From positions 129,001 to 193,000 of the forward strand of contig OY987272.1 of the NCBI GenBank assembly GCA_963920665.1: 64,000 bases of DNA, written 5' to 3'. Positions 931 to 63,546 of the stretch are shown one piece after another. The notes under the pieces are model-generated. The model saw nothing but the letters and a program-made list of their open reading frames with translations. It made no database searches and was not told where the DNA came from. Made by a program: the position numbers and the translations under genes. Within the stretch, counting starts at the first letter, position 1. Every line of letters begins with the position of its first letter. Source of the stretch: Straminergon stramineum. Lineage: Eukaryota > Streptophyta > Bryopsida > Hypnales > Calliergonaceae.

Positions 931-1079
931 CAAGGTTGCTAAAGTGTGATGGGGGAGCAACGAGCAATGAGCAATGAGCGGTTGCATTTGAGCAGTAAGC
1001 TTTTTTTAATTAAATTTTTTTAATTTCATAATTACCATTAATTCTATACTTAGAAATGAAATTTTCAAAAAAAATAAAA

Positions 1080-2420: not shown

Positions 2421-2424
2421 TGTC

Positions 2425-2550
2425 ATAGAAATAGGTAGGATGCCCCTCCCTTGTTTATTTGTTTATTTGTGTCCCCATTGGGATTTGAACCCTAGTCTCC
2501 ACCATTACAATGGAGAGTCTTTGCATTCTATGAACCTACTTCCCTTCAAT
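2425..2550 (-). mobile_element. tRNA-derived SINE-like repeat
   Basis: On the minus strand the sequence contains a good RNA polymerase III B-box (GGGTTCAAATCCC, near 2,472-2,484). About 40 nt upstream is an A-box-like stretch (TAGGTTCATAGAATG). It ends in an 'ataaacaaataaacaag' tail. No cloverleaf can be formed, so this is a SINE head rather than a tRNA gene. Confidence 0.45.
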
Positions 2551-2798
2551 GTTTAATGCCACCTTTTTATTCTATTTATATCCTTCATATTCCTTCTTTA
2601 ATGATGAAAGCATGTGCTGTAATTATTTTTCCAAGGCCATTTTTGACTCCTTTCTCATGTTTTTTAACCTTTTGCTTGAAATAATTGTTACATGGGTGAC
2701 AATTTATTGAAAATTTCAGAAATTGGATGGATTAGAAGTCAAAAAAATGGAATAGGTTTGGACTTTGGGCTTGGACTTTGGACTTTGGCCTTTGGAGG

Positions 2799-2932
2799 CT
2801 TCACACTATGGCTGGCCGAAGGCTCCAATTCCTAGTTTCTTTGGCCTATTTATTGCTCATTTCCTTGGACTCTCACCAAAGTTTGGCCACTCAATCCCAT
2901 GGCCTCTCGACTTGGACAGCCATAGTGTGAAG
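2799..2932. mobile_element. Small MITE with 16-bp terminal inverted repeats
   Basis: CTTCACACTATGGCTG at 2,799-2,814 is perfectly inverted at 2,917-2,932 (CAGCCATAGTGTGAAG). The whole is 134 bp. I could not fix a target-site duplication, so the superfamily is unassigned. Confidence 0.55.
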
Positions 2933-3174
2933 AGGCCCTAAGTACTACAACCATAAGCTAAAGAGAATTTGTACCCTAGAAATACAAAATAAGCAATGCA
3001 ATGACAAATACTATACATATGCAATTGCAATATATCCAAATACCATGCATAGAAATATCTGAATTCAATGCAAAATGTTCAAAGTACACTTCAATTTATA
3101 GAAAGTAATCATTGAATGATATATACATATTGAAATTTTGAATGTATACTAGTACTCAAGAGTCTATGGGAGCA

Positions 3175-3676
3175 CTTGAAGCCATGAATTCTTGCAATCA
3201 TAGTGGCAAAGTAAATGTTGTTTGGAGATTGCATTGAAAACATCACCACCATTGCAAGTGGATTGCTTGGGAAGAGAGCACAATATACAAAGGATGAAAA
3301 TGATAGAAAGCTTAAGTACAACATAAATCATCAACACGCAAAAATTCATGGAAGGAATTAAATATGAAATGTTTAGAAACAAAATCCAGCCCCCACTTTG
3401 AGAAGAACTCTCACACACCACATTGTTACAAGAGTAGTCTATGAGGGTCCTTCTCAAAGAAGGGGCTCGATTTTTTTTCTAAACATTCCATATTCAATTC
3501 CTTCTATGAATTTTTGTGTGTTGATGACTTGAACGATACCTATCACTTTCCACCAATTTCATCCTTCTAAAATCTTGATGCCTTTTTTCCCAGATCCTAC
3601 TTACAAAGGTGCAGATGATTCTAGCACAATGTCTAAACAACATTAACTTTGCCACCATGATTGCAAGAATTCAAGG
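3175..3676. repeat. Large inverted duplication (hairpin) at 3' end of the minus-strand transposon gene
   Basis: The left arm (about 3,175-3,409) and right arm (about 3,442-3,676) are reverse complements over roughly 235 bp with moderate divergence. Matching blocks include 'gaattcttgcaatcat', 'tggcaaagt..atgttgttt', 'catcaacac.caaaaattcat' and 'gaaatgtttagaaa'. The loop is about 30 nt. The right arm abuts, and may include, the last coding exon of the minus-strand gene. A transcript through both arms would fold into a long hairpin. Confidence 0.7.
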
Positions 3677-3756
3677 TTCCACTAAGTAACCACTGTTTTT
3701 AATAGCTAGAAATATGTGAGTGAAACTATCCTAATATCCTAAATAGAAGTACTACA

Positions 3757-4096
3757 AATGCGACCTATTCTTCAACTTTTGTATTGCCTTCAATGTCTTT
3801 GGCCCTTGACTGTATCTACTACTACACACAAAATTTTGCCCAACAATGTCCTGCACTTGCTTCTTCAAGGACCTCCACTCCCAAGCATCCTATGGACGGC
3901 AATTCAAATGAGGCCGAGGTTGCCCTTCATGGGTTTTGCATTGGCGCCTTGCAACCCCCAATGAATGACATCGAGGTAGAGGGGGTCGAACGACCAAGGA
4001 TGTTGTGGTTGATGCGTCATCATTGGAATTCTAAGGCTAAGTCTTCGACAATCCGTTGGGGTTGATAACAATGCCTTTTGCAAGAATGTCAATTTC
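3757..4096 (-). pseudogene. Exon 7 remnant of the minus-strand transposon gene
   Basis: It starts at a clear acceptor (tttttgcag|GAA) in phase 0, matching the GAG|gtatag donor of the preceding exon. The frame stays open apart from three TAG codons, all CAG-like, and reads basic text such as WRSLKKQVQDIVGQ. It reaches a further TAG at about 3,757, beyond which the sequence runs towards the inverted duplication. The function is unknown. The 3' limit is uncertain because the frame may continue past this TAG. Confidence 0.45.
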
Positions 4097-4192
4097 CTGC
4101 AAAAACAAATCAAATTTGAGATTCACCTTCTAAAATATGAGAAAGACAAAGTCATAAAACATATCACATTTGTAAATGTAAGAATGAAACCC

Positions 4193-4526
4193 TATACCTC
4201 AAGGGCAGCCACCCCCCCCATTTCCTTGTCGTAAAGTTTTCTTTGCGTCACAATAGTCAACCTTGAACAATCCCAAGGGGAGGTCGATTGTGGACGACTC
4301 TTCAATGGAGAAGGGGAGCTCACAGGGTGAGTGCGCTTCCCTCTATTCGGAGGAATGTTGACAACCCCATCATTGACCGGCAACATCGAGAAATCCATCG
4401 TCGATTGTGTAGTGGCTGCAGAATACGTGATGTGCCCCAATCCACCTTGCGAGATGGCGAATTGTCCATAGTCAGAGAAGGAATTAGAAGAGGCAGTACA
4501 CTTATTGTGACACTCTATTTCAGTGA
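4193..4526 (-). pseudogene. Exon 6 remnant of the minus-strand transposon gene
   Basis: The acceptor ctacttcag and donor GAG|gtatag bound an uninterrupted frame of about 111 codons rich in Ser, Thr and Pro. No domain is recognised. It needs one base from the previous exon. The matching donor just past 4,770 is not certain, so the join to the phosphatase-like exon is the weakest in the model. Confidence 0.4.
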
Positions 4527-4769
4527 CTGAAGTAGCATGCAAAGCTTGGAGACAAACATAGAATGGTTGTCAAAACAACGCTTCAATGTGTTCAACAATT
4601 ACGCATATGCAATGATTCAAGGTAACCATATATCTTCCATTCTCTCCACAACATGTAAAATACGATGAACATTAAAAATAACTTGCAATTCAACACAAGC
4701 AGTACCTAAAATTTCCAATCAATTCAAACCACACACATGAGTGAAAAGTAAGGAGACCTCCTCCACCCT

Positions 4770-6110
4770 CTAATTTCTGTTCCATGGCTTTAGAGAATCC
4801 TCAGAAGACATTATGCGATTTGGATTTATCTCTCTCCACTCCATGAAAATGCCATTGGACTTGTCAATTGCTAAGTCTAGCTCTATGAACTCAGTTAAGT
4901 TCGGTTCACCGAGAAGGTGAAAGCACCCCATCACATCATCTCTTCGGAATGAGTACAATTTTGTGGGCCTTGCTTCCTGAAGGCGCCGAATATAAGGCAG
5001 AAGGTGATCGATAAGAATCCCATCCATGGCACAATATCCTTGGTATGACCACGTATCAAAGAGAATCACATTTTCTGGATTATTCGTGACTTGCTTTGCG
5101 GGATTGTCATCAACTATGATGGTATTCTCTCTAGAGAAAATGGAATCCTCCATGTCGAACAACCTTTCCAACGGTTTGAGGAACAAGTCTTCGTCCATTC
5201 CCTTCACCTTGTAGTTCACTATCCTTCCACCCTTACTTCTGCACTTTAAAACGACACATTGCTCTTGTCCAAAGACATGCCTTGGGTAGTCTATGCCCCT
5301 AAAGAGGGCATTGCACACTTTGACGACCGTGGCCCTTTTCATGGAGCTCCATACTGAGATGTTTGCAATCACGGATAACTTGCAGAGAAATGTGAGACAG
5401 TGGGGCTGCATTTTCACGAATTTCACACGAACGGTGAGACATTCTAAGTCTGGATCAAAATCATCAATTTCAGTGAACTTCCTTTCCCTTGCGTGATATC
5501 TCTTATCCTCATAGATACAAAGTAAACCATTCAGATCCAGGATGACATTGAGCCACTTCTCCATCACCCTCGACGGGAATGGGTGGAGGACCTAGTCCTC
5601 CGCCTCACCAACTAGAACACATGCCTGACTGCTACCCTATTAAAGATTTTATAGCCAAAACGTGGAGACCGTTAAACCCATGCACTACCCATCACATTAA
5701 GAACACCAAAATGGAACAAGAAGAACAAATCACAGAATTGAAAAAGCCAAGGGCTCGAAAAGAGACACAATGAACTATAGAACGCTAAAATGAATTACTC
5801 ACCACATCAATTGATTGATTAAGTGGAGAAGAAACTATTGCATCGACCAACTCTTTTGAAAGAGGGATATCCAACTCCAAAAGTGCCTAGTCAGAAAGAT
5901 TGTCATCAACCTTTTCCTTGATAGCTTTAAATATGTTGACATCCTCTTCTTCCTCCTCAAGCATTGCGGAATGCATTGTGTCTACATCTAAGAAGGCATT
6001 GCTATGTGGAGAAAGTGGCTCTGTGTAGACACATTGAGGACTAGATGTGGGCGCAAACTCGACAGCAAGAAACGGAACAAGGAGCAGAATTACATCAATA
6101 GTCATAGAGC
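4770..6110 (-). pseudogene. Exons 4-5: FCP1/NLI-like HAD phosphatase domain
   Basis: Exon 4 is 6,110-5,803 and exon 5 is 5,624-4,770. Exon 5 contains VILDLNGLLCIYED (HAD motif I position), VWSSMKRATV (motif II region) and IIVDDNPAKQ with FDTWSYQGY (motif III/IV region). This order is typical of FCP1-homology (CTD/NLI-interacting) phosphatases of plants. The second motif I aspartate of DxDGT is Asn (DLNGL), which should cripple catalysis. A TAG at 5,592 interrupts the start of exon 5 and another at 5,887 interrupts exon 4. From a later ATG (5,564) exon 5 alone is open for 264 codons, so it could also be read as a free-standing gene. Confidence 0.65.
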
Positions 6111-6281
6111 CTGTGGTTGTGAAAATTGTACACAACAATTATGGTGTAAGAAAAAAATTTTATTACAATATCTCAGAATAAGAAATAATACCACAGATAC
6201 ATACATTGGATGTCTTCGTCCACCTACCTACATCTTCCTGTGCAGCGCATTCAACGGACGAACGAAAAACTGGAAGGTAGA

Positions 6282-6302
6282 TTCAACTCGATTCAAGTTG
6301 AA
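6282..6302. repeat. 21-nt palindrome, intron 4
   Basis: It has arms TTCAACT and AGTTGAA separated by 7 nt, and lies in the intron between exons 3 and 4 of the minus-strand transposon gene. Confidence 0.75.
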
Positions 6303-7296
6303 CCAAAGGTTGGAAGGTCATTAGGAAGAACCTGGTTGGTCCTCAGCCACAGGATTGAGGGACTACTCATCCGCCACGACAATCTCCTCCTCCTCTGCTT
6401 GCACAAAATCATTTACATCTTGTGGAACTGAGTCCGGTGTTTGTGCGACAAGCGTTTGGTTGGCCATTGTGGCCGTCGTTGACGGATTTGCAGACCCCTG
6501 CTGTGCCTGCCTCTCACTATCAATTGAAGCATGAGGCTGATTCCCAATACAAAGCTACTATGATTGACTAGGGGAGGGCACGATCATCTGCAGCAGCATC
6601 GAATTCGCGGCATGCATGCTCATATAAACATCTTGAGCAACGACCACACATACTTGAGGCATCATCTCGTTCATCATGTCCCTCATCATGGTCATGTCCT
6701 CCTTCCTTGCCTTCTTGTTTTCCGCTCTGTCCTCCAACAACATGCGTAAGAGCATCTCCGTCGTCATCTCCTCCTTCGGTGACTCTTCTTCGGTCCTCTT
6801 GCGAGGATCATGCTTGGACAAGCTTAGAGTGAGGCTAGGATGCTCCCCTAGTGATGCCAACGAGCCACGCATACTATTGACCTCAGTTGCATTTGTAAAA
6901 TCAATCAAATCCCCATCCATGCTCGGAAACAACTATATCATAGGATCCACCCACGTTGGAGTATGCTCTTCACCGTCATTAGCGAGATGGATTGTTGTCT
7001 AAAGGTCATCCTCGTCGTCTGAGAGTTCTTTTACCCGAGTCGAAGATGTTGCCTTCCCTTTTCTCGAGTTTGATGCACCCCTCGCCGACGTGGAGGCCTC
7101 TTTGGTTCCCTTCTGCGAGTGTACACCTTCATCCATGAAGTAGGTGGAATCAAGGAAATCGTCCTTGTCTAGGTTCTCCGACATCACGGTGAGATTCTAG
7201 AATCTGTCGTGATAACTGTTGTTCGCAATGGCGAAGTGATCCAACCCACTCATCTACATTACAAGATATGGATGTCAAATAGAAGTAATCAACCAG

Positions 7297-7317
7297 TTCA
7301 AGTTGAATCAACTTAAA
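7297..7317. repeat. 21-nt palindrome, degenerate, intron 3
   Basis: It has arms TTCAAGT and ACTTAAA separated by 7 nt, with one arm mutated. It is in the same intron as the copy at 7,399. Confidence 0.55.
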
Positions 7318-7398
7318 ACCAATTAGAAACTAGTAGAAGTTTATAATCATCAACATTTAGAAAGGACCACCATCACACCTATCTTCATGAGAATGAAT

Positions 7399-7419
7399 TT
7401 CAACTCGAATCGACTTGAA
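7399..7419. repeat. 21-nt palindrome, intron 3
   Basis: It has arms TTCAACT and ACTTGAA with a CGAATCG centre, just downstream of the exon 2 donor on the minus strand. Confidence 0.75.
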
Positions 7420-8878
7420 ATGGAATGCTTACCTAAGTAGTGGAGATAAATTTTCCACCTGCGAAGAGTGACAGGACGTCTCTTCTTGCGTTACAAAAGA
7501 GGTCTAGAACATGCACATAGAACTCCATGTAGAGCTCGGTTTCATAGATCATGTACTCCAGCTCATTGTATAGACTCGGCTTCTGCCACTTGGTGATCTT
7601 CAGGACGTTGAACTTCCTTGGAATCAATTTCGGCTTAATCCTTGCGCCTTTCTTCACCAAGAAGATCAAGTGGACAAGTGCCTTTGTGCGAGTGGCACTT
7701 GCTGCTAGGTTTTCTAGGCGTTCGACAAGCGCCGGGAAGTACTCTGAGAAATGCACTATGTATGATGCGCCAAATTCCCTAGTCCTAATATGTACCTTTA
7801 GGTCATCATCTGTTTGCTGGTCACTGCAAATCCACAGCCACACCTCTGGGTCGGTCATGCAAGGATCATCCAGCTTCATGAGCAGATCCATGAATGCAAG
7901 GAAGTAGGGAGAGTCTCAAGGAGCTGTCTCCTTGTTGATGACTCCTAGAATGTTTCAGAAGTCAATCAACGCAAGCTTGAGGGAGTCACCCATGGCTTTG
8001 TTCCATACGTTGTTGCCCCAAGACAGTAGTATGTCGTCCTTTGTATCGTAGGGTCTCAAGTATGATCTGGCATCCGGCTTCTTATACTTCCCCTTGCTCT
8101 TCAAGAAGACCTTAAAGGACTTGGCATCATAGGGTGAAATCTCCCTACAGCTTTTGTTCTTGTTCATTGGTCTCTTCACTTGCGAAAAGAACTCTTCTCT
8201 AGGAGCTGTCAGAAGGAGTTGTTTGGTGGCCTTCATAACGTCAAAGTTTTGCTTGAATGCCATCCATTGCTCCTTTTTGTAATCCCCGTCACTATTGAAG
8301 AATCCTAGGCTTGGCTTCTCAAAATACAAGTACTTCCTGACGGCTTGCTTTCGTTTATTTCGCTCAAGCCATTCCTTCGAGTTGTAGCAATCGACAATGA
8401 CTCCCGAGACCTTCTTGATGGTCACTTTCGAGTGAGGATGCTCCCTTCTCGGCGTTCTATTCAACAGATGCAACGCCAACTTCTTGAGATCAGATTCAAG
8501 CGTATTGCCTAACCATTTGAAGAACTCTTGGCTTATCACCCTGTCTTTCTCCGCATCCCAGTTCTTCATATCCTTGAATGGCAACAAGGATTCCGGATCT
8601 ATCAATAGTCCCTATGACTAACTGGATATGACGTCTTTCCATAGACCATGCACTTCATTTGAAGCGGTCATGATCTTTATTTCATTGTAGATGGATATAT
8701 CCACCATTTTCTTCTTGTTCAATGCGCCCTAGGACTTCTTGACATCGATCATTGCAAAACAAAGTTTCATAGCGTCATGAATCTCCTGTACCAAAATAGT
8801 AAAAGGGGAGAAGTCAGTCACAACAGATCAATGATACAATGTATTGGTGTCAGTGGCCCTTCGAAAGACTAGGATTCA

Positions 8879-8900
8879 AATCAAGTCAATACGAGTTGAA
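8879..8900. repeat. 21-nt palindrome, degenerate, intron 2
   Basis: It reads TCAAGTCAATACGAGTTGA with flanking A/T, and lies in the 128-nt intron between exons 1 and 2. Confidence 0.6.
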
Positions 8901-8913
8901 TGGAGGGGCATAC

Positions 8914-10353
8914 CGTCCACTTCTTGGCCATGACCAAGTCTCGAGGGGTCCGACTTCGGACGGCCACAGTTTTCCCCAACTCCGTCGGCTCTTTTGGAGG
9001 AGGTGGACGGTCAAGGCTGATCCAAATGTTTCTTGCACTCAGTATGTTCATCACCCACGTTGGCATATAGTTATGGAAATGGTTCACCCTATTATAATAT
9101 GCCGAAATTTTCCGAATGATTCTCTCGTCTTTATTTCAAACAATAAAATAGTCCTACTCCTTGAACTTCTCAAACTTCTGCTCAGCCTTCGGAATGGCCT
9201 TCATTCTCTCCGATGCCTCAATGCTATGCTAACCATTCACCATCCAAAATTTTCCGAACTTCACGTCTCTATAGTCCGAGGGCCTGGATGTGAGATCCTG
9301 AGGCATTGCGTAAAGGGTCATCTTCTTGTTTGGATCGGGCATCTCCAGGAAGAACTTTAGTGATGACATTACCCCCTTCTCTTTTAGTCCTCGAATGTTC
9401 AAATTCTCGGGAGGGGTCTCCAGCTGTTCAATGGGGATGGTAAATTTCTTGTCTATCTCGAAGACATTAGAGTCCATATAGGATGTCCAATATTCTTCAT
9501 AAATTTTCTTGGACTCGTCGTAATTTAGCTCTTCCTAGCTTCCCTATATATCCTTCAGAAGCATAGTAAGTGCAAACACCATGTTATCTTCCTCCAGAGG
9601 CTTGGCAGCCGCGTCTGCAGCAGCCTTTCCCCGAGTCTTTGTGCCCACAATGGCGTTGGTGGAGGGTGTACCCCTAGTGTCTTTTTGGGTAGTTTTCTTT
9701 TTTGTCTTACTGCGCCTAGTCTCCGTCGTCTCAATGACGAGAGAACTGTGGCTCCCTCTAGTTGTGTTGTAGGACTTCATTATGGAGAGAGGCTTCATAT
9801 TTTTTGCTCTCTCCACATTCTTTAGCTTCAGTTGCTCAAATGCTTTGAAAGCAACGTTGAGTTGTGACGCTAGTGCCTTTGGCAGTAAGGGCCCTCCATT
9901 CTTGGAAACCTATCTCTTCTCCTCAATGTGATTCACAATATTTTTTTGAAGCTCATTGAAGTCTGAGTCTTCAAGGTTTCGGCATGTAGCGGATATCAAA
10001 AAGATGGAGACCTTTGGAGGTACGACATAAGAGAAGATGTATTCCTTAGCTTAATCAGGGTTAATTGTCTTGCACGACACAATCAACATATTATTAGGAC
10101 CAGTACTGACTTCCATCACAGTTTCATATAATGGAACCGGAAGTGTTGTAGGACAATTCTTGTACTTCGTTGTCAAGCTCAAGTGACCAGACGTTGGCGT
10201 CAAGATGATACTCCAACACTCGATGTGTTCTAGCTCATTCCACATCTAGCACTCGTCGAGGACGACTTCATCTCCATAGTCCTCGAGGTTCTTGTCGCCT
10301 TCTATTATGAATCTTCGGAAGTGTGTCTTCAATTTTAGAATTTGGTCCTCCAT
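8914..10353 (-). pseudogene. Exon 1: ParB-like NGQHS segment
   Basis: The 480 codons start at an ATG. Around codon 375 the text reads FWMVNG-stop-HSIEAS; with Gln at the TAG this is NGQHS, like the DGxHR/NGQHR signature of ParB-like nuclease domains. In many phage and bacterial proteins such a domain precedes an N4/N6 DNA methylase (family knowledge, not proof). A basic Lys/Arg/Thr-rich stretch lies around codons 215-255. There are eight internal stops (10,246, 10,051, 9,910, 9,544, 9,535, 9,229, 9,154 and 9,136; lowest base given) and no frameshift. The ParB assignment rests on this short motif only. Confidence 0.45.
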
Positions 10354-10529
10354 TTCAGCACATTTATTGATTCTCTATTTAGAGTTTAACTTGGTAGGAG
10401 TTGAAATTAAATAACACTCACAATTATCTATGTCAAAATCTAATTTTCTTCGTTTGTTGGACTTGTTTATCTTGTAATATATATTTTGATGAGGTTTAGA
10501 GTATTTACTTTAAGTCTTCCTATTACTGA

Positions 10530-10550
10530 TTCAAGTCGTATCGACTTGAA
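10530..10550. repeat. 21-nt palindrome, 5' intron
   Basis: It has arms TTCAAGT and ACTTGAA around CGTATCG, in the region upstream of the minus-strand ATG that I read as a 5' intron. Confidence 0.75.
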
Positions 10551-10703
10551 CGTTCAAGTGTTTCATGGGCTTTTAATAGAGTTGATTTTTCTATGTAATA
10601 TTTATCTTGATTCGAGTTAATTTACGTAGTTTTCTGGTTTGATGCTGTGTTTCAGTTGATGATGGATTGCTTATGCATTCTTACGTTATTAAATATCTTA
10701 TAG

Positions 10704-10724
10704 TTCAACTCGTATCGAGTTGAA
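10704..10724. repeat. 21-nt palindrome, 5' intron
   Basis: It has arms TTCAACT and AGTTGAA around CGTATCG. It shares its centre with the copy at 10,530 but has the other arm variant. Confidence 0.75.
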
Positions 10725-10873
10725 TTGGTTTGCGTTGCTTCGAGTTGGTTGGAATAGTTTGCTAATTTCAGCTGAAGGTTTTTTAACATCAAATGATTGT
10801 TCATGTTGAATTGAGTTGAATCTTTGAAGCATTATTCATGTTTCATACTTTTTTAGTACAGTAGATCTAGGAA

Positions 10874-11028
10874 TTCAAGTTGATGCCACTTGAATTTCTC
10901 TGGATTCCTTCTAGAGTTTTATAGTAGTAGGGTGGCTTTGAGTTGAACTAATGTCGACTTGAATCTACATCGACTTGAATTTCTGTGGACTTGTAAGCCC
11001 ACAAGAATTCAACTTGATGCCATTCAAA
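10874..11028. repeat. Cluster of palindrome copies and half-sites
   Basis: There is a 21-nt copy at 10,874-10,894 (TTCAAGT, 7 nt, ACTTGAA), half-sites near 10,941-10,979 (gttgaac, cgacttgaat twice) and a degenerate copy at 11,008-11,028. Confidence 0.6.
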
Positions 11029-11349
11029 GTTTATAATAGCTACAACTACATTAGTGCAATAGTGATCCTAGAACAAGTTTAGGGAAAATAGCAAAATGTT
11101 CATTTTTGGAAGATTTTTTTGGAATTTAACATGGAGGGCACAAAAAATTAAGTAGAAATTAAGCAAAAATTTATCTAGTTCTAGGATTGTTGCAGCATAA
11201 GGAAGTCATAAATCTTTAAATCAAATAAAATGTAGACAGAGGAAATCGACAACAAGAAGCACCTTCATAACTCTTACCAACCCTAAATGACAAGTGAAAC
11301 TTGGAAACACTGAAAACAATAATCATATGCAAAAAAAGAAGCAACTTAC

Positions 11350-12280
11350 CGTCTTTTTGAGCAAATGTTCAAATTCCTGTCACGCTCCTGTGGCTTCACA
11401 TTCTTCTACTGATTCACTAAGAAGATTGAACGGACCACAATCTAAAATGCCACATTGAAGACAATGAGGTTCATCACAATGGTAATGCGAAGTAGCAAAA
11501 AAGAATGCGTATACACAAAAGAATGCACCTACACAACTTAAATGTGGACCATAGAACTTGTCGTCTACCTATGGAAGCAAACAAAAAAGTGCATAGATGA
11601 ACACTGCAATGAGTATCTACAACAAGTTGGAGCTAAGCAACCAAAACTCCTAAACCCTACCAAATGTGGAAACACGCAAGGGAATGCATTGTACAAATTG
11701 AAAGCAAAGAGTAGAGCAAGCTAGCATATAGGAACGACATCTAGAAGTGGAAATTGTGCAAGGAAAAACAACACGATGCACTCTACATTTCAATGTACAA
11801 ATGCATAGACTACCAGAATTGAAGTATGCCCTTACAACAAAGAACTCCAACAACAAAGAAAAGGAAAGAGAAGATAGAAATTGAACTTACAAGGGCGAAG
11901 AAGCACCTGAAGGCTTTGCGACACCGCTTCTAAACCCGAACTTCTGCAACCCTAGACCTCCAAGTTCATAGTTCCGCCAACAAAGTACCTCGCCTCACAG
12001 CTTTGGTTCCAAAACTCAAAGAATGGAAGAGAACCTGCATAGAAATCTTGCAAACAAAAATCGCAACATAAAAGAGAAAGATCTGGAAAAAACAGAAACT
12101 GAAAAGCACAAGCACAAGCACAAGCGTGGAAATGAGAAGCAAGCAAGAAGCACGAGTTTGGAATGACGGAGTAGACGGGAACAAGCATTCTTGGGAAACC
12201 CTAAACCTACGGGGTACCCTATACGCGTGTGGTACTTTGAAGCACCTTTTTTTTTTAAATTCATGTACTTTTTCATCCAA
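11350..12280 (-). promoter_or_regulatory. Probable 5' leader exons and promoter side of minus-strand gene
   Basis: The minus strand here is C/T-rich with donor-like sites (CTT|gtaagttc near 11,893 and ACG|gtaagttg near 11,350). It shares the feel of a plant 5' untranslated leader followed by introns. A short stretch 'gcttgtgcttgtgcttttcagttt' resembles 'gcgtttgtgcttgtcttcagtttt' in the plus-strand leader at 18,120. I cannot place a TATA box or start site with certainty, and no convincing coding frame joins this to the ATG at 10,353. Confidence 0.35.
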
Positions 12281-12359
12281 ATTTGGCTACTTCATCCACC
12301 TTTTCAATAGAAATGGAAATGTTCTTGTGAAAAAAGATTTCTTTTATCTGGCATAAAGT

Positions 12360-13149
12360 ATACATTCATTTTGAAAATTCTTAAGTAGAAGTAGGCCCAA
12401 CATTACAAGGAGAACGGAATCATCAATACATGGCTTGAACATGGGTCCCTAAATGAAAGCTGAACATGTGGACATAAATGCAATCTTCTAGGAAAAAGAA
12501 TTTTTAAGTTTCATTTGAATATTTCAAAGATTTAGATTCAACAAAAAACTTCACTTGACCATGCACATCCACTACATGCTCGAATAAATCACTCAGCCCC
12601 TTACTGCCTTTGCCCACTTGCATATTTATAGATTTTTTCTTCTTACAGTGGCCTTAAATATTGATTGGCTTAATTTCTCTCCCAAGACTATTCACATTGA
12701 CCATTTTATGTAGGGTTTGACTTTGGCATAGTTTTTCTCTAAATCAAAAGTTCCTTTCACGTATGGAAAGAAAACTTGAAGAATGACAAGAGAAAGATAT
12801 AGAAGACTATTCAATTTTGGGGGGCATTTTGGAATTATGAAAAGCAAAGTAAACCTTGTCATCTTGTCCATTTTTTTCTCTTGGAAGTTTGTGAAAATTG
12901 AGTTACAAAATGGATCCTATACACATTATTCTTTATTAAAAAGATAAATAGATACTATAATTGGAGTACCTGCAAAAACACATGCTTCATAATTACTTTC
13001 ACAATACTAATGTAAATGAAATTAACCAATCTCTCTATATTTTGACCAAAATTTATTCTATAAGGAATCGATTAAAGAAATTATTTCAAACTTTAATTTG
13101 TGCTTTTTCTATGCATGAGCTTAATTGTTCTGAATTTTTTTTCCCAATC
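12360..13149. other. Spacer, nothing recognised
   Basis: AT-rich sequence between the two divergent leaders, with only short open frames and no recognised repeat. Confidence 0.35.
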
Positions 13150-14800
13150 ATCGATTAAAATCTTAATTATATTCCCATGAATGGAATTTGTTTTTCCATC
13201 CTAAAATGAAATTTCCAAAAATCTTGCTAAAAACTAAGATCGTAGGGACCTAATCAAACCTTGAGTTGTCTCCCAAGGGAACACTTGGGACATTTGGATT
13301 AAGGGGTTGATGAAAATAGAACAAGTAAAAGATTTTTGAACAAAAATCAGTCCACCTAGTAAAATTGAGGAATTAAAGAAGTTGTGAAATCAATTGGAGT
13401 CAATTTTTTAAGATGACCGCATTCAAATGGAAATTAAAAAAATCTTGTTATGACTTCCACAACAATTAACTTTCATATGGCTGTTTTTGTTTAGAATTTT
13501 GAAGAACTATTGTAAGCGAGACAAAGTTTTAGGGTAAAAGAGAAATTTGTATTAGTATGGCAATTACATTTGTTTGATGATTTAAAAAAATTTGAAGGGC
13601 ACTTTTGAAGGGTAACTACGAAAATAAAATTCTTTACTTTCCCCCCAAAAGGTAAAGGATTTGATTTGTGTGAGGTTTTGAAAGGCCTATATGTACCATA
13701 ATTGAAGACTCTTAAGCTTACTATTATATCTCATTTTCCAATGTTCAACAAAATTTGCCAATTTCACTTCATTTCAAATCCAGAAATTTGTCTTTTCATT
13801 ATCTATTTCCTTGGGAAATGTTCCCAACAAGTTCAGTAAAGCTTGTTCTTGTTTTTCAACATTTTGAATTTAACCCCTAAAAGACCAAGGTGATTTTCCT
13901 ATCAAAACACACTCAAAACTATCATTTCTATTGCAAAGAGAAAAGAACATTAAAAATTATTCTTTTTTGCATATCCAATTGTAAGATCTTATACTAGACT
14001 AGTATATGAATACATGGAAGAAATTTCACTTACTTTGACCGTGCAGATTGCAAGATATATGCATTTAAAGTGAAGAAAACAAGCTTTTTTGCACCTTGTT
14101 TGACTAGATTTTTTGGCTTTGAATCTTTGTAGTTCAATTTTTTTGCATTCTGGATTTTAATTTTCTACTTATTTATGTTAAGTAGTTGAGTTAAGGGTTC
14201 TACAAAAAAAATTTGGAAAAAAATCACTTAATTTTCACTCATTAAAAAATTATTAAGAAGAGGTGGGTCCAAGATTGAAGAAAAAACTAAATTGTTAATA
14301 CCTTTTAGATGGAATTGAATCCCAATAATCCCAATGGTGAGATTGTTCTAGAAAGAGAATCTAACCTTGCCTGACATTTTTTTTAGGAAAATTCAAAAAA
14401 TTGCATTCAAAAATGAATTCCACAAGTTATTTTTTCTAGAAGATGCTTAGATTGCCCAAAAAACTAAGATTGTCCATAACTTTCTCACTACTAGTCCAAA
14501 TTGAATGAAACAAAGCTTCACATGTAGAAAAAAATATAATCTTTGAGAAAAAAATTTGAAAAAAATTATTTTGACTTTATGAGATTTTTTTTGTCTAGCC
14601 TGCCAAACTCCATTTTTGCTTATTATGCCATAACTTTTGTTCCCAAGCATCAATTAAAATAAAAAAAATATTTTTTCACAAAGATCTTGTGAAAATACAC
14701 AACCTCAAAAAATTCCAAAAATTGAGACAGTAGGAACCTACCTGGACTGAAATAGTCCCCCAAGGGGACAAGTGGTCCTTTAGGGGTTAAACATGGAAGT
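13150..14800. repeat. Diverged repeat family with 'aggggttaa' end
   Basis: Positions 13,150-13,310 and 14,630-14,795 are diverged direct copies. Both have 'gtaggaacct', then 'cccaagggaacacttgg' or 'cccaaggggacaagtgg', then 'aggggtt'. Positions 14,405-14,580 are the inverted counterpart of 23,835-23,985, sharing 'tctagaagatgct', 'attgtccataa', 'cttcacatgta' and 'aatctttgag'. These look like old nested transposon pieces in the spacer. Confidence 0.55.
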
Positions 14801-15159
14801 TTTCATATAGAATTTTTTTTAGTTTCTATGAAGAAAAAATATTACATTTCAACCATTGCAACATGCATTGCATAATGAATATTATAGCTCTTCATTTCTC
14901 TAATTTGAAGTTCTTTGAAAGTGCATTTTAGTATGCTCATAGATTATTTTATTGGTCATGTCACCTCTAACTCCTAAGAACTAGTATATGCAAATTGTAA
15001 ATACATTGTGGGGAGGCACACTATACTAAAGATAGGAAAAGTATATTTCTATTGTTATGAAGTACAAACACCCAAAAGCGTCCTTCTTTCCATTCATCTA
15101 GAGTATAGGTCTATAAACTAAACCCTACGTTTTTTATGATTTTTTTTTCAATTCACATT
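14801..15159. other. Spacer, nothing recognised
   Basis: AT-rich, with no gene or repeat recognised. Confidence 0.35.
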
Positions 15160-15279
15160 CTACCAATTAGACTATTAGAAAGTTTAGTATAAAAAATAGA
15201 GTTCAATGTGGTCCTAAATCTACCAATTAGACTATTAGAAAATTCACTTTTAAGAAAATAGAGTTCAATGTGGTCCTCA
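15160..15279. repeat. 60-bp tandem duplication
   Basis: 'taccaattagactattagaa' occurs at 15,161 and again exactly 60 bp later, followed in each by 'atagagttcaatgtggtcct'. The two units are nearly identical, so the duplication is recent compared with its surroundings. Confidence 0.8.
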
Positions 15280-17650
15280 ATCATTACAAAACTTATGATT
15301 ATGTTGAACATTTACAACTTCTTAGTTCTATGTCTATGGGGAACCCTATACCATTCCATGACTTTTGGAAATTACATTTTCTTCACCCAAATACATGGTT
15401 GGTTGAATTCCTTTTCCACATTTTGAATTTTGCCAAAGAATGGAAGACTTTGATTGGAACAACCCTATTAATTACCTTTGCATTTTTGGATTTGGACCTA
15501 AACCTCAAAGTTCATTATTGTGCAACAACTAGGTATTTGAAATCATCGAATATATTTTTTGTCACACCTTCAATACACAAAGCCACATTCATTATTTAGA
15601 AGTTTTGATTCTATAACCACTTCATTTGCACATACCATGGCGTGACTTTGGCTTTAGTGAATTTTCTTTTCTTTTCACGTAAACTAAACGTAAATTGTTT
15701 TTACTCATATCAATGAATTGCGATTTTGATTTTCTAGTCTTGTAATTATTTCAGCACTCATAATTTTTTTGTTATGACTAAAATGTCATGTCCTTTAACA
15801 TTTCTGAGAATTGTCACTAAACCACCAATGTAATACATGTAATTTTATACCCTATTGACATGCATATACAGAAGAAAGAGCATGTTCGCCAAATATTTAT
15901 AACCCCTTGAGCATTGAACCTTCATTAGGAAAAATTTAAATTGGAAAAGAATATGTCGAATGAAGACACATCTTTAGTAAGGATGGAAAAATAAAGCTTT
16001 AATTCATAGTAAACCTTGTCCACAAATTTTGTACCATTATAAGTGCATATTGCCGCACTCCAACAACTTCTATCCTTTATGAATGCACAAACATTGAATG
16101 CCGCATAACACTTAAGAGATAATGGAGTGGTGCATGGGGATTAAACATCATTGATAAAGATAACTTGGAAGTGAAAGATAATCATCAACCTCATTTTACA
16201 TGATCTTCTATATAAATTTGGAAATTCCAAAATGTAGCCCTACTCATTATGTAATGAAGTACATACTTTTACATATTCTTATACATCAAATGCATATACT
16301 CAATGCAATTCCAAATTCCACATATTAGATACTTGAGCATTTATACTTTTTAGATTTGTTTAGGCATACAATTGCAGAACATATCATTGAATAGGCTCTT
16401 GGAAAAAAAGAACCTAAACATAAATATTATAATTGACATTGGAAATTAATGCCCCAAAACTATAGCATGTAAAGAACATCATATGACCTCAATCTAGATT
16501 GAAACTTATTGAAATTTACTTATATAATATGGAAACTTACTACCTATGTGTGAATGTAATTTTCCTCCAATCGGTGTCGAGGAGCTAAAGTTATGGCACA
16601 CTCAGACAACCAAAAGTTGAACTCCATTGGTACCAAAAAAATTCTAGGAGAACATGAAATGAAATTTTCAATTTGTTATCCTTAACCACTTTAACCCTTA
16701 ACCCCTAAATGCCCAAGGCACCAGATTTTGGTGTTTTAGGGTCTTTGAAATTAAGTAGAGCCCAACAAAATTGCTATTATTATTAGTTTGTATTTGTGGA
16801 AAACTCTTTTTAAAGTTTATTTTTAGGATTAAAAAAGCTAATCTTAAAAATGAAGGCTTATGATTTTTCTATTCAATCTTTTGTGCAAGGATGCCCATTG
16901 CAATTTTGGCCTCCAATAGTGTTGAGGGCTATTGGAAGTGAGCCTCAAATACATGAGATGTTCGAGTAAAAATCACATGAGAATTGTAGTTAAGAAAATC
17001 ATAGAATACATTTCGGACAATTGTAAATTAATTGGGGTTGTGCATGCTAAGCCCTATAATCTCATAATTTTTTAGTGACCAACTTTTTAGAGTTGACATG
17101 CACAAAGAGAATTGATAAATTTTCAGACTTTTAACACCCACATTATCAATCATTATAATATGTCAATCCGTATGTGATATTGTTATGTTTTGGTTTCCTA
17201 TGTGATCTCCTAACATGTCTAGTTTGAATTTGTACGGTTACAATTAAAAAAAATTGGTATACCTTAGGAAAATGTTCATTTATGGTATAATTTAGAACAA
17301 ATTTCAAGAAGCTCCAAACAGGCCTTGGGCATTTAGGGGTTAAACCCTCTACCCTAAACCCTTAAACTTTTAAACTGTATACCATATACCCTAAGAAAGA
17401 AAAAAACAACAACCCTCAAACCCTATAGTAGCAACTCATGCCATAGTAGTGCATGAACTGACAATGCACGTAGTCCACCCACATAGATTGAGCATATGTC
17501 TTTCCTAAAGTTATTTTTAACATTTGTAAAAAGTGGTCTAAAATTCCTTCCGAAATCCTTGGACAGATAAGTGGAGCATTTGAAAGGCTAATTGAAAAAA
17601 GTGTATAGCTACATTATGTTTAGGCACATGCATTTGGATAGCTAGCTAAA
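15280..17650. other. Spacer with old repeat fragments, no gene
   Basis: Open frames are short and unconvincing (for example 15,270-15,599). Fragments of the 'aacccctaaatg.ccaagg' motif lie at about 16,695 (plus) and 17,325 (minus). Positions 17,338-17,370 contain telomere-like 'ccctaaaccc' text. Confidence 0.4.
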
Positions 17651-17889
17651 GCAAGAATGCGGCCACTTTCCAGAATGAGAGTTTTCTCTTACATTAATGA
17701 GGAATATGGCTACTTTTTCGAAACAAACTATTCCCTAATAAAAATAACCCATGACTATAGCCAACTACTGGAAAGTTGTCCAGAAAAACCGAGCGGTCCC
17801 ACATGTGCCTTAATCGGAATCACTGAAGTTTGCACATTGGATGCAAGTCTCTTAAAATATGTGTGGTCCATGCGTGGATGACCGTTTCA

Positions 17890-18232
17890 ATGCCCCTCCA
17901 ACTTCTCCCACAGAGATTCTCCCGCCTACGAGCTTTGTTGTATCCAACTTCTCCCACAGAGACTCTCCCGCCTACGAGCTTTGCTGTGTCCACTCTCGAG
18001 CGAAAGACTACACCATTCTCTTCCTCATTTCTTGATCGTTCTCTGGTATCTTGTGTTCGCGTTCTATGTTTCAGACGTTGCGTTTGTGCTAGTGTGGAGT
18101 GCGCCTTTGGAGTTTGCCATTGCGTTTGTGCTTGTCTTCAGTTTTCCTACGATCAGCTACTCGGTAGTTCCACAATTTTCTTGTCCGTCCTAAACACTTG
18201 ATCCTTCAAGCTGTGCCATCTCTTCGTAGGTT
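17890..18232 (+). promoter_or_regulatory. Probable 5' leader exon of transposase gene
   Basis: This GC-richer, C/T-rich segment ends at a donor-like CGTAG|gttttc. A putative 1.4-kb intron with three 21-nt palindromes follows, and then the acceptor gtgcag just before the transposase ATG. This mirrors the organisation of the minus-strand leader. It appears non-coding. Confidence 0.35.
17898..17989 (+). repeat. 46-bp tandem duplication in leader
   Basis: 'ccaacttctcccacagaga' starts at 17,898 and 17,944, and each unit continues 'ctcccgcctacgagctttg'. There are two nearly identical units within the probable leader of the plus-strand transposase gene. Confidence 0.8.
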
Positions 18233-18581
18233 TTCTTCAAATGCACATGACCATGATAGTACTCTCTGTTGCTATGGGGACGTCTGGAATACCTTGCAGG
18301 ATCATTGTTTTTAGTAGCCGCCTGAACATTCTTTTCATATCAATAGAGTTGAAAGTAGTGTGTGTATTACATATTGATTCACATAATTTTATCGAGTACT
18401 ATGAAGTTTCTTTCCAGTGCAATTGTGGAGTTTGGCTTCCACAATTGGTTCTGTGCGTGAATTGAGAACAGGACAATTCCCGTAAAATGCGTTGAATTTT
18501 GGAGAATTCATATCCACAGGATTGCACTTCAATTGAACTACAATAATGGAAATGATAGTGGGGACAAAACCCGATGCATTA

Positions 18582-18602
18582 TTCAAGTCGATTCGACTTG
18601 AA
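18582..18602. repeat. 21-nt palindrome, perfect, transposase 5' intron
   Basis: It has arms TTCAAGT and ACTTGAA around CGATTCG, and is a near-perfect palindrome. Confidence 0.8.
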
Positions 18603-18670
18603 TTAGAAGAACTTCAGAAAAATGTATCCCTATTTACTGATTAGAAATATCAGTAATTGTATTACTGAGG

Positions 18671-18691
18671 TTCAACTCAAGTTGAGTTGAA
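18671..18691. repeat. 21-nt palindrome, transposase 5' intron
   Basis: It has arms TTCAACT and AGTTGAA around CAAGTTG, 89 bp (start to start) from the previous copy. Confidence 0.8.
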
Positions 18692-19529
18692 TCAGAGAAG
18701 TCAATAGTTGGCCAAATCGAAGAGGTCCTCCACAATAGGTGAAAGTATTAGTGTAAAATTGATACGTGAGCGAGATGTAGTGAAAATCACTACTTGATTG
18801 AATACTGGACCTAAACCGTAATTTAACTTCGAGTGACTTGGATTCTTGAGAAGATATAAAATGTCTCCGGTTCAATAAAAAGTCTTTGATATTCTATAAC
18901 AGGGTTGTTCTATCGAACGCATTTTGGGGTTCAGGTGTCGAGTTGTTCGTCTGACATCGCATGTCGTATAAGACAAGTGTCACATACACTAGACAATTTT
19001 GTCGCATTAGGCCTTATCCTAGCAACAAAGACAATTTGAAATCTCCCTTTATTTATGATCCATAATTTAGAATGTAATAAGTGATTATTAAATTGAGACA
19101 CTTCAATAAAATGAAACTCAAATATGTCAAGATTAGAAATAGAAAGAGCTTTATTTGAAAGTCAACCTTAGAGTTGACTTTATTAGACGGACAAGGGGTC
19201 TACTAGATGTGTTGGATGTTGTGTTCGTTATGTTGTTGAGTTGTTCGGCCGAACAACCATGCTCTATAAGGTAGAAAAACATTGGAGTTTTATGACTGTA
19301 ATTTAATGAGTCTTAAAGATGGTCTATGTATAAATTATTTTGAAGATTATGGGTTCATCTGACAGGACCTTAATAGAAAAAAGTACTTGCAGGATTCAAT
19401 CTTTATAGTAGACTAAATTGGGTGAATGTAGTGTTTCATAATTGATCTCTCTCAATGATGTGATTGGTCTGATTTATGATGATGAGAACAATTCATTGTC
19501 AACTATAGTGTTATATGTTTCTGTGAGAA

Positions 19530-19550
19530 ATCAACTCGATTCGAGTTGAC
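19530..19550. repeat. 21-nt palindrome, transposase 5' intron
   Basis: It reads TCAACTCGATTCGAGTTGA with one flanking base mutated on each side, about 100 bp upstream of the transposase exon. Confidence 0.75.
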
Positions 19551-19652
19551 TTATCATATGCTAGTATGCTACTATATATTGTAGCTATTATTTGATTTGG
19601 TGAATATTTCCATTGAGGTATTTGACTGTCTTCGAATGATTGTGCAGGTATC

Positions 19653-22464
19653 ATGGATGTTTTAGTTGATCCGACACGGGAGTACTCCTCCAATGAAGGG
19701 GATGTTGAGATCGTTCCTGAAGTGACTCTAGAGATTCTTGACTGCGAAGGCATCCACCAACATCTTTGGAGCACAAGGGTTGTCACCCTTCTAAATGCCA
19801 CTGGTTGACCAGTGGCAGAGGAATAGTTCACAGCATGAACTCCGACTTAGTGCAAGGTTATGATGGTCCCTTAGGAGATGCTTTTGTTGCCGTCTGGATT
19901 TCAAAGTCTTTACACATTGAAGATGTTCCAAAGGATTGGAGGTACTCTCTCCATGCATGGCCCATTCAGCAGGTGTACTTCAATGGGGCTAGCATCCGTG
20001 ATCACAAACTTCGTGACAACCACAACTATCGACAAGTTAGACTATTACAACCATCTTCTTTGCAAGCTAGACCATACACAAGCTCGATCAGGAATCCTCC
20101 TCCTCAAGCTTGTATGAAGTCCAAGGAATTGCTCACCCAAAAGTCCATCAATTCAATGCCAAGCAAAGTCTGTTGTTCGAACAACTGTGTGCAACCTTTT
20201 CCAAGAGAGAAGATTTAGGCTTTTCGTGAACGCACGTACCATAACTCAAGTTTTGAGTTTCGATACCACATGAAGTTGGATGTTCATAGGTAGGTCCATC
20301 GTGACTCCCAAGAGAAGAGGGTGGTTAGTGTAGAAGGTATTGATGTTTATTTGGCCGCGTGGAGACATATTTCGGGTGTCCCGGAATCTACCTTCCATCG
20401 TTTTTAAGGGTATGCTACTAAAAAAGAACAAGCTCATGTTCACAGTAATTTGGGTATGCAGAAGCTTCGGATGCACACATCACAAGCGACCGCGACATTG
20501 AATTGCATGCTTGAAAAGTCCGCAAACCATATGCCACATCATACACATACTCTTCTAACTAGGGAGAAGGTGGTTTCCATGGGTTTTTTGGCCACCTTCA
20601 AATGGAAGGAGACTATTCCCGAGGTTAACGTAGCGAATGCTGTGTTTGGATTGAAAGAAGTATTGGCTTCAAGCATAAGCAAGATCAAGAAATTGAACTT
20701 CCCCAAGTCTAGTGCTAAGAAGCTTGGAGATAATTTTGCACGTTGTTCAAAGTGTGATAGATTGCAAACTCTAAAAAGAACTGCAACTGTTGGGTTACGA
20801 CGGAAATGGACCCACATTTTGGAGAAACATTTGGCCATAGCTTGAGCACATCAAGATCACTACTATGCAAACCAATACAAGTCTAGTGCATATCCTCACG
20901 AATGCTTGACAATCATGCATTACAAAATGGATCATGCAAAAACTACTTCTCATGTGTTCTCACACAAGAGTAAACAACTTGATGGACAAATGAAACTGCC
21001 GATTTTAGTTACAAGTATGATTGCTCATGGAGTCATGGACATGGGGATGTGCGTTATACACATTATGGTCTTGACATCTTTCTTCATGAATCAAACTACA
21101 CAATGGGGTCATTAGCAAAGTTTTTACGAGATGTTGAACTGCCCCCAAAGTACTCATCTTGCGAATTGTTTGCTAGTTCATGCTTTGCTCCTCTTTTTCA
21201 AGTAGTGCTACAAGGAGCGGACATTTGCAAATTATTGCTTCGGCCACCGCCCGAAGTTGTAATTCTAGCGACTACCCTTCCTTTGGTGTTGAACGTTCAA
21301 ATGGACAATGCAATAGGAGACAATAAGAACAGATTTGTGTTTGCATTTTGGTCCCTTCTTGTTGCTAAGAAAAAATTTCGTGAGGTGTATGTCAGTTTCA
21401 TGTTGGTTGGTTAGACACATGACGACATCGACGTGTTGTTTGGAAGGTGGAGTATGTAGTTGAAAAAAGAGAACTTCCCCACCATCCCATCTCTTATGAA
21501 GTCCTTCATGGATGTGGATTCAGTGCCCACAATTCCTCACTTTATTGAAGAAGTGCCAGATTTCAAAGCTTTCATAGAAAGTTTGATTCTGGAAGGGGAA
21601 GATGCACTTGTTGGCCATACCAAAGCACAATATTTCAAATTTTATCTCAACTCTAAGGGGGTCCCGGTCATGAAGTACAAGAAATACTACACAGATAGTA
21701 ATTGGCTGCCTGAAGAAGTTGGAGGGATAAAATTATGGTGAGAAGACTCCGGAGGGAGGAATCTATGGCCTGGTAGGGAGTCACTGCCTGTTGTATACCT
21801 TCTAATGAGGAGTGTGGATGATATTTACAAGGGAATATATGGGTTCATCAAGTATTGGGAGTCATTATGCGATGAAGATGGAAGTGGTGAGTATAGGAGA
21901 CAGTTCGAGCATTTGGTATTCTATTGGCGGGCGGTGAATGCGGCCTTGAAGGAATCCATCGAACCTTCTACTACATTGGTAGATGGCTTTTGGCCTTCTT
22001 CTCGAGTAGAAACAATAGAGGAGGATGAAATTGATGATGATGGTGAGGTTCGTGAGGAGTTTGCTGAGGATGATGCCTTCGTGGGGCAACTTTGCAATCA
22101 TCCATTGCCATCTTTCCGAGTGGTGCGTGATCTTTTTGAAGGGTACTTAGTCGCCATTCGACCAAGTGATGGTGATACCAAGCTTGTATGGATTGCTAGA
22201 GCCTTGTCTGATCCTTTCACAAATCTAGAGCATCCTAATTGTGTGCTCATTCAATACTTTCGGTCCACATCATGAGAGTGGATTATTCAAGAATCCTATA
22301 CTAGGTGGGATTCCGCCAAAGGATTGCATTGGAAAGTCGATGACACCCAGAATCTGATGTGGAAGGAAACGAATTCTTTGATGACGGCATGGAAGTCAAG
22401 GGTGAAGAATGACACCATAGAGTGTGTCCTCAAAATCCCATCTGCTCAAGTCGATGTTATCAAT
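19653..22464 (+). pseudogene. Decayed transposase, DUF7869-type DDE-like block
   Basis: The exon follows the acceptor gtgcag at 19,648 and has an ATG at 19,653. It ends at the donor AAT|gtaagt (22,464). The middle has CSKCDRLQTLKR (20,750) and then HYKMDHAKT (20,920). The C-terminal part has NVQMDNAIGDNKNRFVFAFW (21,295) and VG-stop-THDDIDVLFGRWSM (21,405), followed by an acidic tail. This order matches plant transposase-like proteins annotated DUF7869, whose three acidic positions probably form an RNase H-type site (recalled family knowledge). Stops at 20,216, 20,291, 20,405, 20,843, 21,457, 21,739 and 22,273 are C-to-T type. The frame also shifts several times, around 19,835, 20,030-20,230 and 21,050. 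At least one 3' exon must follow, but I could not find it. Confidence 0.7.
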
Positions 22465-22985
22465 GTAAGTTTGGCTACGTATAATACTAACTGAGCATTT
22501 ATGAGGTGCTTTAAAGATAGTACCTAGTATTTGAAGCTATGTTTGATAGTTCATGTTTATTACTTTATACCCTACTGTGGTTTTGTTTTGCCTTAACTAT
22601 AATGGATTTTATATGAATTTATATCATGTACTGTAGAGTATATGATATAGATTGGCGTAATATGATTTGATTTTATACATTTCTAGATGGACTATTTTCT
22701 ATATTGTAAGTATGAAGTACTATGTGGAGCAATTGCACTAGAACTCAATAATGAATATATTGATTATTACATTATACACGTACTTGTTTCTATATGTACA
22801 TCATTTTTCCTTTTTATTGACTTTGTAAATTTGTTTTAAAAATATAAGACAATTGAAACAAAATGGTAGTGCATAAGAGCACGTTATATTTTGGTAATGC
22901 ATGAAGCACTTGTCACAGTTTGGGAATGGGGTTGGTTGGTTGTTACAACTTTCTTGCCTGAAAGGCTCACTTAGAAACCCCAAGT
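22465..22985. other. Downstream of transposase, nothing recognised
   Basis: It starts with the intron donor and continues AT-rich. The expected last transposase exon and the element terminus are not recognisable here. Confidence 0.35.
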
Positions 22986-23097: not shown

Positions 23098-23585
23098 AAT
23101 GAGAATACAATATTCACTTATATGGAAAATCAATATTATCTTTGTTAGGAAAATTTTCTTAAGGACGCTTTGACGACTAGAAACTCTCATTTTAATAGAA
23201 ATTCCATCTTAAAACTACCAAACTGAGTTCCCCTTGACTTAAATTTACTTCAAATCTACTTCGATTTTGAGGCCTCCAAATTGGTATTATTATTTTGGAA
23301 GGTACCCAATCTCCCATTTTAATGAGTATGATGTTATTTCAAGGAAGGTATTGTTTCCAATGAAAATTTATAATTTCCTTCAAGCATTACTGAGGTCTAA
23401 GGTTGATAAATTTATTCCTATGCTAACACCAATGTTTATGAGTTCTCATTACATTTTGCCATTAGATAGACCAACTCTTGGGTAGTGAAACTTAAAAAAA
23501 TAGATTCAATCCACATGTATTCCAATTACTATCTATGAGCTAAATATATATAATTTTTTACATTGTGCATGGAACCTCAATCATA
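23098..23585. other. Intergenic, nothing recognised
   Basis: Only short open frames occur here, for example 23,267-23,485, without a motif. Confidence 0.3.
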
Positions 23586-63321: not shown

Positions 63322-63546
63322 GCTGGGAATGGTTGGGGTCTTATATGTAGATGAAATTTGCCATTTGTTGTCCAAATTGATAGCATAGTTGATTTTCAAC
63401 TACACTTTCTAAATGGTTGGGGTTCTAAATGGCTAGAGTCTTATATGTAAATGAATGAAATTTGCCAAGTCATTTGTTGTCCAAATTGACAGCGTAGTTG
63501 ATTTTCAACTATACTCTCTAAATGGTTGGGGTCTTATATGTAGATG
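63322..63546 (+). repeat. Tandem repeat of about 110 bp
   Basis: 'aaatggttggggt' with 'cttatatgta.atgaa', 'catttgttgtccaaattga.agc.tagttgattttcaacta' recurs starting near 63,322, 63,412 and 63,520, with small length differences. Confidence 0.7.

Follow-up and report, generated by a model that had tools for sequence, protein, structure and literature searches.

A decayed 21-kb moss DNA transposon with a likely DUF7869 transposase, a divergent ParB-like/FCP1-like gene and arrays of 21-bp palindromes

We analysed a stretch of 64,000 nucleotides from the moss Straminergon stramineum (contig OY987272.1, positions 129,001 to 193,000; hereafter the window), which is C10:129001-193000 in the searched genome of 326 Mb in 59 contigs. 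Positions 2175-23335 of the window are a single decayed DNA transposon of ~21 kb with defined ends and two divergent genes. Gene A on the plus strand carries a DUF7869 domain, and gene B on the minus strand combines an FCP1-like domain with a ParB-like box and a degenerate methyltransferase-like region. Taken together, the element probably combines a DDD transposase with a divergent ParB-like/FCP1-like regulator, whose predicted targets are palindromes of the element itself.

The left terminal inverted repeat (TIR) of the window copy lies on the plus strand at 2175-2199 and differs from AACATCATATTCATTAAAATGGGAG at two positions, and its inverse lies on the minus strand at 23311-23335 with one mismatch. 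Directly outside them, the target-site duplication (TSD) ATTT is found at 2171-2174 and 23336-23339. The left end AACATCATATTCATTAAAATGGGAG is common to six of six other copies of the window's subfamily, one of which has a mismatch. We read both ends of 13 copies, picked mostly for closely paired genes, namely the window copy, the C7 copy, the C3 copy (L029-L031) and ten further copies. The 25-bp TIR was present at both ends in 13 out of 13, with no mismatch at either end in nine; the copy at C2:45.96M has a variant TIR with 3 and 5 mismatches. The 4-bp TSD was identical in 11 copies and showed a one-base difference in two. Two hallmarks of a cut-and-paste (TIR) transposon, terminal inverted repeats and a TSD of fixed length, were found. 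The C3 copy spans C3:114383-132752 (18.4 kb), and copies of its subfamily are 92-98% identical over ~800-860 bp of the left end. The original prediction, made from the letters of this stretch, had proposed one large element at 3175-22464; the single element stood, with one TIR pair and TSD around both genes, and its extent was corrected to 2175-23335. The left TIR sits outside a later insertion of ~710 bp (approximately 2227-2938), which is missing in all six other copies and resembles a miniature inverted-repeat transposable element, with the termini GGGCC and GGCCC.

A scan of the genome gave, as a minimum, 141 scored matches to the FCP1 exon out of 526 candidates, and 85 to DUF7869 out of 880. 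For 50 of the 85 DUF7869 genes, the nearest scored FCP1-like exon lay within 20 kb and in divergent orientation, compared with a mean of 1.6 and a maximum of 5 in 500 trials of random placement, a control that used estimated lengths for C1, C4, C6 and C8. Many of these pairs are spaced near 14 kb, and divergent pairing persists down to families whose identity is only ~60% for gene A and 40-45% for the FCP1 exon. Copies in which each gene is bounded by its own terminal repeats, or in which the genes are never adjacent, would have spoken for two separate elements, brought together by chance or nesting. The 29 DUF7869 genes without a scored FCP1 exon inside 20 kb point that way and count against our reading. 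However, the divergent pairs, together with the single set of TIRs and TSD that encloses both genes in each of the 13 copies, leave the two-element reading practically no chance, and the shared ends refute it.

The matches are unevenly distributed: contig C11 (17.4 Mb, ~5% of the genome) holds 75 of the 141 scored FCP1 and 37 of the 85 scored DUF7869 matches. Among the gene B relatives of the moss Ceratodon are proteins whose locus tags begin with UG or VG. Judging from these sequence matches, C11 is a candidate sex chromosome, and the element may be part of the reason why repeats accumulate on the sex chromosomes of mosses.

The remnant of gene A lies at 19653-22491 on the plus strand, where positions 20983-21738 match Pfam DUF7869 (2.9e-36). 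In the window copy the first Asp position is occupied by Tyr (IMHYKMDH) and the frame contains stop codons; therefore this copy is dead. Several gene A frames elsewhere in the genome are free of stops. Four residues, Asp418, Asp421, Asp543 and Asp585, are invariant across 28 aligned moss-type DUF7869 proteins, and all four are kept in five of eight fern-like proteins and in one marine protein. All 28 match the DUF7869 profile and no KDZ model was among the ten Pfam families listed, where a missing profile match is no proof. The structure model of gene A, of moderate confidence (mean predicted local distance difference test, pLDDT, 67.8), places an RNase H-like order of strands and helices around the Asp residues. 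A Foldseek search with this model had an Argonaute PIWI domain, Tn5 and Mos1 in its top rows, with a best E of 2.6e-3 and none at E<=0.001. This search gives weak but consistent support for a predicted DDD transposase fold. Overall, the DUF7869 protein is very likely the element's transposase, by which a family of unknown function gains a likely role in elements with defined ends.

Gene B was traced on the minus strand by eye with splice signals for exons 1-3 and the FCP1 exon. Exon 1 (8914-10374) contains near 9232 the ParB-like box NGXHS, in which X is a TAG codon; exon 2 (7433-8785) is the degenerate methyltransferase-like region with LFAGGKF near its end; and exon 3 (6366-7253) encodes an acidic low-complexity linker. 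They are followed by the FCP1/NIF-like exon (4773-5591), with LDLNGLL at motif I and VDDNP at motif IV, and by a tentative C-terminal exon (4192-4569). A foldback unit of two nested inverted repeats, with arms of 83 bp at 80% and 97 bp at 86%, lies near the 3' end of the gene (3177-3681). The original prediction had read a Gln at the TAG, and the C3 copy and moss proteins indeed have NGQHS there. It had also recognised two divergent gene remnants; both are present, with matches to Pfam NIF on the minus strand and DUF7869 on the plus strand, as are the motifs it quoted.

The FCP1-like exon matches NIF with 3.6e-12 and 46.7 bits (cutoff 21.8). Precomputed Pfam annotation lists PF03031 in 12 of 20 gene B homologues of 1291-1551 aa, and hmmscan found NIF in 14 of 19 aligned gene B proteins. 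The closest named relatives of gene B, proteins from Physcomitrium and Ceratodon listed as FCP1 homology domain-containing, have the same fusion of ParB-like box and FCP1. Physcomitrium patens and Ceratodon purpureus also supply the closest named relatives of gene A, listed as DUF7869 domain-containing. The catalytic motif of FCP1/NIF phosphatases is DxDx(T/V). Motif I of gene B is D-x-N in 79 of 80 readable proteins (139 examined), which lack the second catalytic Asp and so do not show the phosphatase motif; motif IV is D-D in 88 of 98. The HAD phosphatase-like (FCP1) domain that had been predicted is therefore recovered as a NIF match with Asn at the second catalytic Asp, and ordinary phosphatase activity appears doubtful because motif I lacks that residue.

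Next, we consider the palindromes, which follow the 21-bp pattern TTCARSTCG-NNN-CGASYTGAA (9-3-9). They occupy noncoding parts of the element, including introns of gene B and the regions 5' of each gene. In the window they form a cluster 5' of gene B (10385-10963; at 10385, 10530, 10704, 10800, 10874 and 10943), occur at 8880 in intron 1 (8786-8913), at 7297 and 7399 in intron 2 (7254-7432) and at 6282-6302, and lie 5' of gene A (18582-19550; at 18582, 18671 and 19530). When up to three mismatches are allowed, the window element contains 13 sites, the C3 copy 20 and the C7 copy 18. At up to four mismatches, none was found outside the elements in 42.8, 9.6 and 4.1 kb of flanking sequence, and block-shuffled sequence gave 0.4-0.6 sites on average. 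The spacer of 3 is specific, as other lengths (0-6) give 0 or 1 site. Across the whole genome the pattern has 224 exact matches, and its reverse has none. Among the 50 of these that were listed, 47 are no more than 20 kb away from a scored exon of the element, compared with 0.8 for random positions (with an estimated length for C1). The shared palindromes pointed out in the original prediction thus exist and greatly exceed chance expectation. One subfamily mostly has the half-site TTCAGGTCG, the other mostly TTCAAGTCG or TTCAACTCG; therefore the arms tend to change together, and 13 of 17 C7 sites have the same base in both arms at the variable position. The sequences flanking the palindromes are unrelated to each other.

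A scan of bacterial and archaeal genome contigs for relatives of DUF7869 gave 11 contigs. Eight of them belong to a single bin, Trichormus (ERR2144891). The fern Azolla is host to Trichormus azollae, and going by the bin name these eight contigs are likely host fern DNA. A divergent second gene is present in five of them (L053, L055, L056, L058 and L059), and the other three start close upstream of the DUF7869 frame. This gene carries the box VIGGSHSAEARRQL where moss gene B has IINGQHSVAASRMM, and its further exons encode ADIPYGF and VLDLFSGTG-CVGTTLACALKTFRNCISLEKDE. It shows motifs IV and I of N6/N4 DNA methyltransferases and matches Pfam N6_N4_Mtase (PF01555) with 1.8e-13 and 51.4 bits (cutoff 26.7) over joined exons, and with 4.1e-8 and 33.9 bits in a single exon; its nearest solved protein is CcrM (8.6e-8). 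By family, the fern-like gene B is almost certainly a DNA methyltransferase, as far as such matches can tell. No NIF match was found in five scanned gene B pieces of L055. The ParB/methyltransferase identity first suggested for the moss gene, for which the searched libraries gave no match in moss, is backed by the fern-like partner with its clear N6/N4 methyltransferase match.

The TIRs of the fern-like elements begin with AACAC. On L055 the element spans 391-8114 with a 4-bp AACA duplication, and when its flanks are joined, an open frame runs on into integrase domains. The interrupted sequence is a gypsy-like pol gene (flanks 1-390 and 8119-8811), with integrase H2C2 and rve domains at 8055-8810. 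Palindromes of the 9-3-9 form precede gene A, and on contigs that include both genes they sit between the two; their sequences differ from those in moss: AGTCGATGC-NNN-GCATCGACT, GGTCGATAC-NNN-GTATCGACC and, in L057, ATCCGATGC. Perfect copies number 8 in L053, 10 in L058, 3 in L057 and 1 each in L052, L054, L055 and L056; there are 2 in marine contig L060 and 1 in L051, a contig of moss type. L060 and L061 are contigs of equal length with the same frames and palindromes, found in metagenome-assembled genomes named Planctomycetia and Flavobacteriaceae, and encode a DUF7869 protein of 1068 aa with two 9-3-9 palindromes just upstream.

These distributions bear on what the palindromes are for. As they accompany both genes, which counts against our reading, gene A could be the binder; the palindromes would then be transposase binding sites in the same transposon, and gene B would have another role. 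They do lie 5' of the DUF7869 gene in moss, in seven of the eight fern-like contigs and in marine L060, where no gene B was seen. On the other hand, L060 begins just upstream of its palindromes, so that a divergent gene could be off the contig, and the palindromes are absent from the TIRs, to which a transposase has to bind; many are found 5' of gene B or inside its introns. We consider binding by gene A somewhat unlikely. Several palindromes lie near the ends of gene B introns, as might be expected of RNA hairpins in introns or leaders that serve, for example, splicing. A loop of 3 nt, the strict 9-3-9 form, unrelated flanks, the clustering of most sites 5' of the genes and the position of fern-like sites between the genes on contigs that contain both all argue against hairpins, which makes this explanation very unlikely. 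The predicted binding of the palindromes by gene B is, in our judgement, an evenly balanced proposition.

Capture of host genes is common in plant DNA transposons, and the FCP1 part of gene B resembles a fused domain. Gene B could accordingly be a passively captured host gene fragment (transduplication) without function for the element. It is, however, kept across families that are only ~40-45% identical in the FCP1 exon as well as in Physcomitrium and Ceratodon, and the ParB-like partner has the same divergent position in five fern-like contigs; passive capture is therefore highly improbable. We favour that moss gene B derives from the same ParB-methyltransferase as the fern-like gene, which seems rather likely. 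In moss gene B, FAGG and IDFR-x-x-P are collinear with the fern-like methyltransferase motifs, and the best hhalign match pairs exactly the boxes VIGGSHSAEARRQL and IINGQHSVAASRMM, albeit weakly (P 0.0016, probability 16%).

A number of observations weigh against the overall reading. Concerning the kinship of the moss and fern-like genes, six moss gene B proteins (tblastn, 1e-3) and their profile (E<=1) match no fern-like contig, hhalign between the two groups gives only P 0.002-0.011 over 24-25 columns with a probability of 4-16%, and homology in the methyltransferase part is not significant (hhalign P 0.2-0.3); PF01555 matches none of the 19 moss gene B proteins in Pfam. Gene B has no ParB-family match in Pfam, NCBIfam, PHROGs or PDB sequences, so that ParB denotes the motif G-x-H-S and a short hhalign match, and its predicted structure is useless (pLDDT 37). 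For gene A, the Foldseek TM-scores are low (~0.1 by query). As to the element, the right end was never read in four of the six other copies of the window subfamily, six near pairs are not divergent (five on the same strand and one convergent), and L056 has TIRs with no matching TSD. Finally, 3 of the 50 listed palindromes are away from scored exons, the arms disagree at the variable position in 4 of the 17 C7 sites, and L059 has no perfect palindrome.

We compared copies to follow their decay. In four gene B copies, C>T and G>A account for 64-76% of the copy-unique changes, with rates of 0.11-0.23 in CG, 0.12-0.20 in CHG and 0.035-0.058 in CHH, i.e. two to five times higher in CG and CHG than in CHH. 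The shared type of decay noted in the original prediction is thereby established, and the dead window copy shows decay of the methylation type. An excess of such changes in CG and CHG is the expected signature of plant CG/CHG methylation; therefore the element is likely a target of silencing by the host. The noncoding interior (window 12452-13887) is 91-95% identical between copies, compared with 84-90% in coding parts, perhaps due to slower decay of CG/CHG-poor DNA. Outside the element, the window holds tandem arrays at 59479-59787 and 63338-64000, with periods of 34/69/103 and ~109-114 bp.

Based on these observations we propose the following mechanism. Gene A would cut at the inverted repeats and insert with a 4-bp stagger, and gene B would be a regulator directed at the palindrome arrays, which are located 5' of both genes and within the introns of gene B itself. 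The fern-like gene B may methylate adenine or cytosine (N6/N4) at the palindromes. For mosses, decay of the methyltransferase part is likely, and the FCP1-like domain might be tethered at the same kind of site, where it could act on transcription, e.g. on the RNA polymerase II tail, and keep the element expressed despite host CG/CHG methylation. Common to both lineages would be the transposase with its DUF7869 domain, the ParB-like partner and palindromes with an odd spacer; the effector differs by lineage. Action of the cargo on element DNA, supposed in the original prediction, would then have the palindromes as candidate target sites. That anti-silencing is the purpose of gene B, as analogy suggests, is a tentative proposal. 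We are similarly cautious about the wider possibility of a moss/fern transposon lineage that resists CG/CHG silencing and piles up on one chromosome. Its ParB-parS-like epigenetic module would pair a ParB-like DNA-binding protein with cognate arrays of 21-bp palindromes; in ferns it would be joined to a CcrM-like DNA methyltransferase that marks the control regions of the element, and in mosses it would have been retooled through loss of methylation and gain of an FCP1-like transcription phosphatase.

Fusions of ParB with methyltransferases exist in bacteria. Like CcrM-type methyltransferases, the fern-like partner has an N6_N4_Mtase domain with DIPYGF and FSGTG-GTT, here behind a ParB-like box; unlike CcrM-type enzymes and the ParB-methyltransferase fusions, it is a spliced gene in a eukaryotic-type transposon, and its ParB part is a motif only. 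If true, a plant transposon with a bacterial-type methyltransferase would be an unusual eukaryotic mobile element that brings its own N6/N4 modification. The Physcomitrium and Ceratodon proteins are direct relatives of genes A and B but are listed as plain proteins.

The fungal transposons that carry TET/JBP genes likewise have a DNA-modification enzyme beside the transposase. According to PMC12730594, Kyakuja has a 7-bp TSD without TIR, Zisupton a TSD of 8 bp and IS3EU one of 6 bp, whereas here a 4-bp TSD is combined with a 25-bp TIR; the TSD of 7-8 bp expected of KDZ elements was not found. The enzyme also differs, being an N6/N4 methyltransferase (fern-like) or FCP1-like (moss) and not a TET/JBP dioxygenase.

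The functional analogue is found in VANDAL21 of Arabidopsis. In PMC5735166, its protein VANC is reported to bind arrays of YAGTATTAY in noncoding parts of the element, and both binding and hypomethylation are described as shown. Similarly, gene B is predicted to act on many short motif copies, which are concentrated in the element's own noncoding parts and vary between related elements as they do in that account. In contrast, the VANC21 motif in the same source has 9 bases in one orientation at high density, and the motifs here are 21-bp palindromes. The Pfam matches of the 19 gene B proteins name no VANC-type family, and binding and hypomethylation by gene B would follow by analogy. The palindrome arrays nevertheless offer a concrete candidate target of an element-encoded regulator, and may provide an independent comparison for anti-silencing of the VANC type.

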